A DNA stretch of 64,000 nucleotides, taken from Candidatus Bathyarchaeota archaeon. GTDB taxonomy: Archaea; Thermoproteota; Bathyarchaeia; Bathyarchaeales; Bathycorpusculaceae. Below are positions 13,920 to 17,959 of the stretch, piece after piece. Location: positions 124,001-188,000 of the forward strand of contig JAGTQZ010000002.1 of assembly GCA_018396705.1 (NCBI GenBank), given 5' to 3'. Within the stretch, counting starts at the first letter, position 1, and each line of letters starts with the position of its first letter. The notes under the pieces were generated by a model. That model was not told the DNA's origin. It did not search any database and saw nothing but the letters and a program-made list of their open reading frames with translations. Made by a program: the position numbers and the translations under genes.

Positions 13920-14048
13920 CGAGAACAACAAGAACTCACATATTTAAGCTGAGGCTTTTTCCCATTTCCACACAATTTCTTGAGTTGAAAGATAACAATT
14001 CCTTGAAAAATCTTTGAAAGAACAACCTTAGGTGAAAGGCTAGCATAG

Positions 14049-14123
14049 TGGGGCTGCCCGGATTTGAACCGGGGTCCCGAGCGCCCGAGGCTCAGAGCCT
14101 GGACCAAGCTAGCCGACAGCCCC
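14049..14123 (-). tRNA. tRNA-Pro (anticodon CGG)
   Basis: Acceptor GGGGCTG/CAGCCCC, D-stem GGCT/GGCT with G-U pairs and A14, G18-G19, A21 in place, anticodon stem TGAGC/GCTCG around loop CTCGGGC (U33, CGG, G37), a 4-nt variable loop and T-arm CCCGG-TTCAAAT-CCGGG all fold. The discriminator is A; CCA is not encoded and no intron is present. Confidence 0.95.
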
Positions 14124-14242
14124 CCTTTTTGTGTTATGCCTTTGTGGTTTGTTTGTAGTTAGGTTTAATAAAGGTGTTTTATAACTTTTAAACTCTTGTC
14201 TGGCTAGTAGTTATTTGTTTGTAGGAAAGGAGTTGGTGAGTA

Positions 14243-16432
14243 GTGTCTAGTCAGCATCAGCGTTTGCGGGGAATTCGTGTTTTGAAAGCTGTTTCTTCAG
14301 CTGTTCGTCTTCAAATTTTAAATTCTCTCTTTGACAAGGGTGAGCTTTCTTATACAGAGTTGATGGGTCTTTTGAAGATGAGTCCAAGTCGGGATGCTGG
14401 GCGTTTTGCTTATCACTTGAAGTTCTTGCTTAAGGCTGATTTAGTTGAGGTTGATGTGGAGTCTAAAAAGTATCGCCTAACTGATTTGGGTAAGATGGTG
14501 CTTGAGGTTGCTGATGAAATTGAGAAGAAAGGTCTAAAGCCTCAAAAGCTTTTGGTTCGAACTTCGCGGTACACTCTTGAAGAGTTTGATATTAACAGGA
14601 TTGTCGAGGCTCTTGTGAAAGAAGCAAACATGCCGGTGGAGCAAGCTAAAAAAGTTGCAAAAGAAGCTGAAAAACGACTTTTGAAAGCCAAAACAAGGTA
14701 TTTGACGACACCGTTGATAAGGGAGGTTGTTAACGGAATCCTTGTAGAAAAAGGCTTAGAAGACTACCGTCACAAGCTCACTCGTTTGGGGCTTCCAGTG
14801 CATGACGTAGCTCACATGTTGTCTAAAGGCAAAAATTTTCAAAATGCCTCTTCTTTATGCGAAAAATTTGGAGAAAACGTTTTTGAGGAATACACGCTTT
14901 TGAACGTGCTGCCAAGGGACGTTGCAGACGCCCATCTTTCGGGAGAAATACATATCAACTATTTAAGCCACTGGATCCTGAAGCCAAGCGAGGTAATCCA
15001 CGACTTAAGGTTCTTCCTTGAAAATGCCGGTGCAATATTTTTCACTAAAACTACGCCTAAAACTCTGGAATCTGCTCTAAACTTAACATTCAACATGCTT
15101 TTGCACGTGGCAAAAGAGGTTGGTGGGACGCAGACTCTCGAGTATTTCAACGTGTTCCTTGCACCTTTCTTGAGGAATTTAAAACCAGACCAAGCTAAGG
15201 AAGCTTTGAAGCTTTTCATGCTCAATTTAAGCCAGCACATCGATGCTTCTTTGAATTTAGAGCTTACTGTTCCAGACTTTCTGGCAGAAAATCCTGTCAT
15301 TAGTAACTCTGCATGGACTGGTAATTATGGAGATTTCATGGACGAGTGCAGACTTTTAGCGCTTCTTACACTTGAGGTTTTGACTGAAGAAAGTGTGAAG
15401 AGGCCTCTCTTGAATCCAAGGGTTGTGGTGAAACTGCGTCCTGAAAACTTTAAGGACTACAGTGCGTCCAAAATACTGTTTGCCGCCCACAACTTAGCTG
15501 CAGCTAGAGGTTTGCCCTATTTTGCAAATAATTCAGGGGAGGAAGGAAAGCATTCTGTTTTTTCTCCTTCCGGCTTCAGGCTTAGAGCAAACCCAAAAGA
15601 TGACTGGGAAATTGACACCGTCCGCACTGGAATTTTAGGAGTTGTAACGGTTAATTTACCGCGCATAGTCTATGAATGTGGTGAAAATGAAAGCAGGTTT
15701 TTCGAACTTTTAGATTCTCGGTTGGAAATGGCTGCACGAGCACTAGAAATAAAACTTAAAGCTCTGAAGCGAAATGGTAAAGGTTTCCTATCTTTTCTGT
15801 TAAAAGCTGTTGATGGTGACGAGTATTTTAGGCTTGAAAACTCTGCACACGTAGTGAACCTTGTTGGTTTAGAAGAGACGGCTGAAGTTTTTAGTGGGAA
15901 GAATGTTTACGAAGATGAAGATTCCTTGAAATTTGCCGTTCAAACCGTGCAACACATTTCAGAGTTTCTCCAAAAAAGGGAATATGAGCGGAACAAGCGT
16001 CTAATGGCTTCCTTTGTGCCTTTCGAGGAAGCTCACATTAGACTGGCAAGGCTGGATATCGAACGTTTTGGCGCTGCAAAAGTTCGCTTTCACGGTTCAC
16101 GGGAAAAACCCCATTACTCAGCTTTCACAAAAGTAAATATACAAAACCCGAGTGATATGTTAAAAACTTTAGCCGCTGGAAAAGAGCTTTATTCACCGTT
16201 GGTTGGCGGAAACCTCACTGTTATAGATCTTGGTGAAACTGAACAAACGGCTGAAACGCTTTTAGCCTTAACTCAAAAGTTTGTTGAAAATTACCAAATG
16301 GCGTTCTTCACTTATAGTCGCAACTTAACTTATTGCAATAAATGTTGTGAAACCATGTTCGGTCTACTTCACAAATGCCCAACTTGCGGCTCGGTTAGCA
16401 CACTAGCTCATCTAACCCGTTACATGTGTTAG
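14243..16432 (+). CDS. wHTH + ATP-cone + NrdD-like protein lacking radical residues (probable pseudoenzyme regulator)
   Basis: A 729-residue fusion. Residues 10-85 form an ArsR-like winged helix (VRLQILNSLFDKGELSYTEL ... YRLTDLGKMVLE). Residues 100-195 form an ATP-cone (VRTSRYTLEEFDINRIVEAL ... YRHKLTRLGLPVHDV). The rest resembles anaerobic ribonucleotide reductase NrdD: ADAHLSGEIHINYL, GVVTVNLPRIVYECGENES and a C-terminal CNKCC...CPTCG zinc site. In NrdD this is followed by a T-G-Y glycyl-radical site; here it reads LTRYMC and ends, so Gly is Arg. The region where NrdD has its MGCR thiyl cysteine reads IDTVRTG. Catalysis is therefore unlikely; a nucleotide-sensing transcription factor is my inference. 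GTG start behind AAGGAG. Confidence 0.85.
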   Translation: MSSQHQRLRGIRVLKAVSSAVRLQILNSLFDKGELSYTELMGLLKMSPSRDAGRFAYHLKFLLKADLVEVDVESKKYRLTDLGKMVLEVADEIEKKGLKPQKLLVRTSRYTLEEFDINRIVEALVKEANMPVEQAKKVAKEAEKRLLKAKTRYLTTPLIREVVNGILVEKGLEDYRHKLTRLGLPVHDVAHMLSKGKNFQNASSLCEKFGENVFEEYTLLNVLPRDVADAHLSGEIHINYLSHWILKPSEVIHDLRFFLENAGAIFFTKTTPKTLESALNLTFNMLLHVAKEVGGTQTLEYFNVFLAPFLRNLKPDQAKEALKLFMLNLSQHIDASLNLELTVPDFLAENPVISNSAWTGNYGDFMDECRLLALLTLEVLTEESVKRPLLNPRVVVKLRPENFKDYSASKILFAAHNLAAARGLPYFANNSGEEGKHSVFSPSGFRLRANPKDDWEIDTVRTGILGVVTVNLPRIVYECGENESRFFELLDSRLEMAARALEIKLKALKRNGKGFLSFLLKAVDGDEYFRLENSAHVVNLVGLEETAEVFSGKNVYEDEDSLKFAVQTVQHISEFLQKREYERNKRLMASFVPFEEAHIRLARLDIERFGAAKVRFHGSREKPHYSAFTKVNIQNPSDMLKTLAAGKELYSPLVGGNLTVIDLGETEQTAETLLALTQKFVENYQMAFFTYSRNLTYCNKCCETMFGLLHKCPTCGSVSTLAHLTRYMC

Positions 16433-16437
16433 GTAGT

Positions 16438-17367
<930 letters not shown>

Positions 17368-17463: not shown

Positions 17464-17494
17464 AGCCAATTATAGCCTTGTGAAGGCGACAATA

Positions 17495-17959
17495 ATGAGT
17501 GAGACAATGCTTTACGTTTCAAAAATTAAAGATGGAACAGTTATCGATCATATTACTGGTGGACATGCGTTGGATGTGATTAAGATTTTGGGGATAACTG
17601 GTAAGGAAAAACGCATAATCACAGTTGCCATTAACGTGCCAAGTAAACGGTTCAAAATTAAAGATATAGTGAAAATTGAGGGAAGAGAGCTTAACCCAAA
17701 CGAAGTTCACAAGATTGCCCTCTTGGCTCCTCATGCCACCATTAACATTATCCGTGATTATAAGGTCGTTGAAAAACAGAGGGTTAAGTTGCCCAACATA
17801 ATCGAGGGCATAGTGAAGTGTGCAAATCCCGCATGTGTCAGCAACAGCAATGAGCCAGTCAAATCCAAGTTTTATGTTAAAAACGAGGAGCCGCTGGTTC
17901 TGAAGTGTCATTACTGCGGCTACATAATGGACAAAAGCGACATTCTTAAACAGTTTTAA
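17495..17959 (+). CDS. pyrI: Aspartate carbamoyltransferase regulatory subunit
   Basis: A 154-residue protein with the allosteric domain (LYVSKIKDGTVIDHITGGHA, then KRIITVAINVPS) and a zinc domain with CANPAC and CHYC that contacts PyrB. It binds nucleotide effectors and links catalytic trimers. The ATG at 17495 is preferred over the GTG at 17480 because it gives the usual length and N-terminus. The NPNEVHKIALLAPHATINII stretch is diagnostic. It is divergent from pyrB. Confidence 0.96.
   Translation: MSETMLYVSKIKDGTVIDHITGGHALDVIKILGITGKEKRIITVAINVPSKRFKIKDIVKIEGRELNPNEVHKIALLAPHATINIIRDYKVVEKQRVKLPNIIEGIVKCANPACVSNSNEPVKSKFYVKNEEPLVLKCHYCGYIMDKSDILKQF

Follow-up and report, generated by a model that had tools for sequence, protein, structure and literature searches.

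A predicted dead class III ribonucleotide reductase with an ArsR-type head as a probable regulator of ribonucleotide reductase genes in Thermoproteota

Control of ribonucleotide reductase (RNR) genes by an ATP-cone protein is already known from NrdR, the cone of which binds ATP and dATP, both together permitting DNA binding, according to the passages of PMC9110341 drawn on here. The protein described in this study has in common with NrdR, as presented in those passages, the ATP-cone type of sensor and the job of RNR regulator that we propose for it; however, NrdR is small and consists of a zinc ribbon plus a cone, with no barrel. The class III reductases, NrdD (P. copri 8P23 series, S. thermophilus 9D3X, T. 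maritima 4COI and phage T4 1H78), share with our protein the barrel, the zinc site and the N-terminal ATP-cone, whereas our protein lacks the radical Gly, the active-site Cys, NxN and HxHD and has an ArsR-type winged helix-turn-helix (wHTH) added at its N-terminus. The ArsR/SmtB repressors (CzrA, HlyU, CadC and BigR) resemble its residues 1 to about 105 in wHTH fold, but here the wHTH sits at the front of a chain of 729 residues. As a build, an ArsR head on a dead reductase is new. In our literature search, which covered few subscription papers, neither a description of such a protein nor one of RNR gene control in archaea devoid of NrdR was found. If our reading is true, a transcription factor derived from the ancestor of an enzyme under its control operates across Thermoproteota, including the ammonia oxidisers.

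The window, that is, the whole stretch of 64,000 nucleotides analysed here, comes from a Candidatus Bathyarchaeota genome and carries the fusion gene with the neighbours listed in the table below. Against Pfam, the product matched HTH_5/ArsR at residues 21-69 (E 3.5e-6, 27.2 bits with a cut-off of 22), ATP-cone PF03477 at residues 105-175 (E 2.3e-7, 31.7 bits with a cut-off of 25.8) and NRDD (PF13597) at residues 201-726 (E 2.8e-70). It missed the cut-off of the NCBI NrdD equivalog TIGR02487 (238 versus 326 bits), and TIGR00244 (NrdR) was absent from its NCBIfam matches. Residues 13-88 are also spanned by DUF7347 (Pfam PF24038; E 2e-7); as the function of this domain is not characterised, no assignment is gained from the match. 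A homologue in SKYB16, also a Ca. Bathyarchaeota, is 69% identical to the window protein.

Table. Features of the fusion gene and its surroundings in the window
Feature	Coordinates	Strand	Evidence
Fusion gene wHTH / ATP-cone / predicted dead NrdD, 729 aa, GTG start	14243..16432	+	ORF, Pfam
ArsR/SmtB-type winged helix-turn-helix, residues ~10-95	14270..14527	+	Pfam HTH_5, DUF7347; CzrA fold match
ATP-cone, residues 104-183, VRTS replacing KRDG motif	14552..14791	+	Pfam; fold matches 5im3, 5olk, 9d3x
NrdD-type barrel, residues 200-690, without catalytic residues	14840..16312	+	Pfam NRDD; 8p2s_B structure match
E250 codon, betaA active-site Cys column	14990..14992	+	alignment
F445 codon, thiyl-radical Cys column; MGCR/MCCR finger loop changed to SGFR	15575..15577	+	alignment
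Four-Cys zinc site C698, C701, C712, C715, retained	16334..16387	+	alignment
C-terminal R726-Y727-M728-C729; chain stops at glycyl radical loop position	16418..16429	+	alignment
pyrB, aspartate carbamoyltransferase catalytic chain, convergent	16438..17358	-	Pfam; conserved neighbour
pyrI, aspartate carbamoyltransferase regulatory chain	17480..17959	+	Pfam; neighbour tables
tRNA gene (Pro, anticodon cgg), divergent from fusion gene	14048..14123	-	ARAGORN

The AlphaFold model of the full-length protein (pLDDT 85.6) has as its top PDB match the Prevotella copri NrdD 8p2s_B (Z 33.9, 3.0 A over 517 residues at 18% identity), and class III reductases were also best in Foldseek (E 1.1e-23). When the head, defined as the N-terminal 196 residues, was folded separately (pLDDT 84.2), residues 3-97 matched the ArsR-type CzrA (Z 13.2, 1.8 A, 90 residues) and residues 101-194, approximately, matched the dATP-bound cone of P. 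aeruginosa NrdA, 5im3 (Z 12.2, 2.6 A, 91 residues); 5olk and 9d3x were further cone matches, both with Z 11.9. The first-pass annotation had read a wHTH, an ATP-cone, an NrdD-like body and a zinc site in a single chain and had proposed structure prediction as a check. Pfam, fold matches and alignment all bear out this architecture, the barrel matching NrdD and the cone matching reductase ATP-cones.

The surroundings of the gene in other genomes point to its function. The next downstream gene on the same strand encodes a catalytic RNR in 43 of the 109 genomes with a complete head, a set that was deduplicated by hand and is non-random, as 16 loci were added from the ammonia-oxidiser family (27 of 93 without these loci). 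The neighbour is the class II gene nrdJ in 32 genomes and the class III gene nrdD in 11 (4 of type A, 6 of type B and 1 of type C), while 66 of the 109 have no RNR gene next on the same strand. Two extra cases are L036, where nrdD follows a truncated fusion gene, and L082, where nrdJ is convergent. All four NrdJ neighbours tested scored 557-736 bits against TIGR02504, the cut-off being 400. Five loci (L039-L042 and L046, three of the five checked) have a glutaredoxin gene separating nrdD from the fusion gene, and its glutaredoxin-like product is likely the reductant for the adjacent type B NrdD. Some of the reductase genes encountered are unusually long: NrdD frames of 1580-1737 aa (G064, G088 and G222) and NrdJ frames of 1270-1298 aa (G131 and G142) suggest insertions, perhaps inteins.

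The association also holds in the ammonia oxidisers, some of which are in culture, so that the regulator reading can be directly tested. nrdJ stands next to the fusion gene at 28 of 28 loci inspected in this family, in which AmoA was tested in 12 genomes; in all 12 AmoA-bearing genomes so tested, nrdJ adjoins the fusion gene and the fusion protein is the only PF13597 match. Neither an NrdG nor an NrdR scored over the cut-off in these 12 genomes. With neither a catalytic NrdD nor an NrdG over the cut-off found alongside it, the fusion protein can hardly be a reductase or an NrdD subunit there. A word of caution for annotation follows, as proteins of this kind match the Pfam family named "anaerobic ribonucleoside-triphosphate reductase" in organisms where no catalytic NrdD was found.

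As the fusion gene recurs beside working reductase genes, its product most likely switches those genes on or off, and we consider it probable that this product regulates the transcription of RNR genes and had a single origin, in an archaeal NrdD of class III. The ancestral NrdD would have gained an ArsR-like winged helix at its N-terminus and lost the reductase chemistry, its barrel being kept as a dimerising, ligand-responsive body. A pair of winged helices would bind DNA at RNR promoters, and the ATP-cone, possibly together with the NrdD effector site, would read the ATP/dATP or dNTP state. Nucleotide state may then alter the shape of the barrel or its oligomer and thereby cause the protein to bind DNA or let it go; by analogy with NrdR only, high dATP might lead to repression. 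Candidate targets in the window genome would be nrdJ, the nrdR-nrdD-nrdG operon and pyrBI.

A different use of the same parts can be imagined, in which the protein is a regulatory pseudo-subunit that enters mixed oligomers with NrdD or NrdJ and tunes their activity, with the winged helix serving protein contacts. Homology to NrdD, which is dimeric, the position of the gene next to RNR genes and the retention of both cone and barrel would all suit such a subunit. However, NrdJ and NrdD are both accompanied, and they are too unlike to share one mixed interface easily; moreover, the head, which resembles DNA-binding ArsR repressors, ranks with the most strongly conserved regions of the protein. 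Company of either NrdD or NrdJ makes a subunit of a single enzyme unlikely, while control of RNR genes is compatible with either partner, and we therefore regard the subunit as a fairly unlikely explanation.

The first-pass annotation had stressed the pyrimidine genes next to the fusion gene. This setting is real and widespread: in the window, pyrB lies 6 bases from the fusion gene and convergent with it, with pyrI beyond, and pyrB is the convergent neighbour in 39 of the 109 genomes and pyrI directly so in 3, across several classes. Such a distribution might suggest a regulator mainly of pyrBI that would make aspartate carbamoyltransferase responsive to NTP or dNTP levels. The two genes are tail-to-tail, however, and no shared promoter is thereby indicated, so that the emphasis shifts to the stronger link with catalytic RNR genes of two classes. 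In several Bathyarchaeia (L035, L037, L039-L041, L044 and L046), the order is fusion gene, nrdD and then convergent pyrB, which places pyrB beyond the fusion-adjacent nrdD, and the ammonia oxidisers retain the RNR link with no pyrB adjacent. A role centred on pyrBI is accordingly improbable in our judgement. In view of the order seen in these Bathyarchaeia, the window arrangement may be the same one minus nrdD.

The window genome has its own working reductases. In addition to the fusion protein, it encodes NrdJ and a separate nrdR-nrdD-nrdG set, with NrdR and NrdG over their cut-offs; its nrdD is located in the nrdR operon, and in the window's own family the fusion gene is not adjacent to an RNR gene. 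The sole TIGR00244 match of the genome is this separate NrdR, on contig C9, which agrees with the earlier suggestion that the fusion arose independently of NrdR. Upstream of the nrdR-nrdD-nrdG operon in fusion-carrying genomes (L114-L131), there are NrdR-box-like sites, and the operon of the window genome has them too.

Since an intact NrdD is encoded in the same genome, in the separate nrdR-nrdD-nrdG set (L001), we used it as the reference for a direct comparison of residues. The roles of the NrdD motifs, such as the NxN flap and HxHD as substrate motifs, are taken from the relevant parts of PMC11226230 and PMC9669993. In the window protein, the thiyl Cys is replaced by F445, the betaA Cys by E250 and HxHD by H-I-N-Y. 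The first-pass annotation had read the change at the radical site as T-G-Y to T-R-Y; this was misaligned by three residues, as R726 falls in the column of the conserved Arg that precedes the radical Gly by three positions (SRxxG). With R726 as the conserved Arg preceding the loop, the last residue, C729, sits in the Gly column, and no Gly is present at the radical position of the window protein under either reading of the alignment. Elsewhere in the chain, candidates for an intact Gly or Cys, the presence of which had been named beforehand as counting against a dead enzyme, are accounted for by the zinc-site cysteines and the last residue. The region of the catalytic Cys is indeed devoid of Cys, and the notion of a pseudoenzyme joined to a DNA-binding domain holds as well, with catalytic residues gone and an ArsR-type wHTH in place. 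We conclude from the alignment that the window protein is a dead reductase that has lost the radical Gly, the two active-site Cys and the substrate motifs.

The same losses run through the family. A single MAFFT alignment held 83 homologues, one from each of 83 genomes (48 close, including the window row, 26 distant and 9 shortened), with 17 catalytic NrdDs. In it, the betaA Cys and the first Asn of NxN were kept in none of the 83 versus all 17 catalytic enzymes, and 6 of the 83 had the second His of HxHD, versus 17 of 17. The radical Gly of the C-terminal RVxGY loop was found in 6 homologues and the thiyl Cys in 19 (17 of 17 catalytic NrdDs for each), and the Tyr following the radical Gly in 1 (16 of 17). 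Each of the four zinc Cys was retained in 81 or 82 of the 83; among the catalytic NrdDs, one zinc position is His in 2 of 17 and the others are kept in all 17. Since 18 of the 48 close rows have Cys at the thiyl position (SGCR), where the window protein has Phe, loss of the thiyl Cys does not define the family. The occasional Gly or thiyl Cys might hint at a reductase that is still active, or moonlights, with an atypical radical site, or at an enzyme that uses what is left of the pocket for a different reaction. However, Gly and Cys occur together in only 2 of the 83 (L019 and L065), and the window protein has neither; almost all homologues lack the betaA Cys, NxN, HxHD and the Tyr that follows the Gly, and no NrdG exceeds the cut-off in the 12 ammonia oxidisers, which leaves such an enzyme very improbable.

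The fusion is both old and widespread. It is present with an open frame in 54 of 60 genomes in a search of relatives that included the window genome, and 5 of the 6 genomes devoid of it are at most 85% complete. Distribution was sampled within Thermoproteota, with 397 genomes in one survey and 151 in a second that used a head-only profile. In the latter, wHTH plus cone was matched in 95 genomes, 91 of them at E <= 2.5e-60 and 4 between about 1e-33 and 1e-25; 5 further genomes matched only via the cone of an NrdD. In a tree of 79 NrdD cores, all 54 fusion rows formed one clade (SH-aLRT 99), sister to the catalytic archaeal NrdDs; the tree was made by a quick method with SH-aLRT as its only support, several long branches were flagged and 19 of the 48 close rows were included. 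The phylogenetic spread about which the annotation had asked thus comes to 95 of 151 sampled Thermoproteota genomes and a single clade.

Mean pairwise identity among the 83 homologues is 0.51 for the wHTH, 0.64 for the cone and 0.34 for the core, while the catalytic set of types A, B and D has the opposite pattern, with the cone (0.50) below the core (0.56). On these identities, the DNA-binding head and the sensor are the parts most protected by selection. For the whole protein, dN/dS is 0.027-0.158 in 9 close pairs, several of which have a high or saturated dS. A decaying gene fusion or pseudogene, as the missing catalytic residues and the frames of 539-665 aa in some lineages might imply, can be dismissed in view of the open frames in 54 of 60 genomes, these dN/dS values and a head conserved phylum-wide. 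The shortened proteins, many with frames in that length range, keep wHTH and cone (families f25, f29, f23 and f41). VRTS in place of KRDG is also found in type A catalytic NrdDs, so that the absence of KRDG is by itself no argument against nucleotide binding.

More tentatively, and with more doubt than confidence on our part, the RNR regulator proposed above may represent an old, phylum-wide archaeal control of dNTP supply that uses a whole dead reductase as its sensor. The cone would read ATP/dATP, the former effector or substrate sites in the barrel would respond to further nucleotides, and control of whichever RNR class is in use would fall to the ArsR head; in ammonia-oxidising archaea, the protein might be the main RNR regulator.

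No operator was established for the fusion protein in the upstream regions of the fusion, nrdJ and nrdD genes, and Rfam gave no match at gathering score for the six loci submitted. Upstream of the window fusion gene, there is an inverted repeat, GGTTTAA-N-TTTAAACC, which is conserved in close relatives and whose pattern matches twice genome-wide versus once for a backward control. We rejected it as an operator: it lies between the divergent tRNA and fusion genes and is better explained as two back-to-back core promoters. The tRNA sequence itself recurs upstream in close relatives (window region 14048-14200). The GATC repeats that precede the fusion gene in ammonia oxidisers were also set aside, as they are inconsistent and partly coincide with the end of the preceding gene.

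Two elements were found upstream of the reductase genes. In the ammonia-oxidiser family, GGTGTnAA occurs upstream of nrdJ in 18 of 28 cases versus 0.29 expected from shuffles, and upstream of the fusion gene in 0 of 28. With a motif chosen post hoc and species that are related, it is a lead only. TATACAA-type repeats lie upstream of the tandem nrdD (L034-L046), with 14 in 11 loci versus 0.92 expected from shuffled sequence, and hardly occur ahead of the fusion gene; being AT-rich and post hoc, with some loci near-identical, they may serve as a lead only. In the ammonia-oxidiser family, the conserved element upstream of nrdJ, between the fusion gene and nrdJ at L081, L083-L087, L134-L139 and L154-L169, has roughly the form GTACCGGTGTnAAtannnTTGA; it is absent upstream of the fusion gene and is a possible operator.
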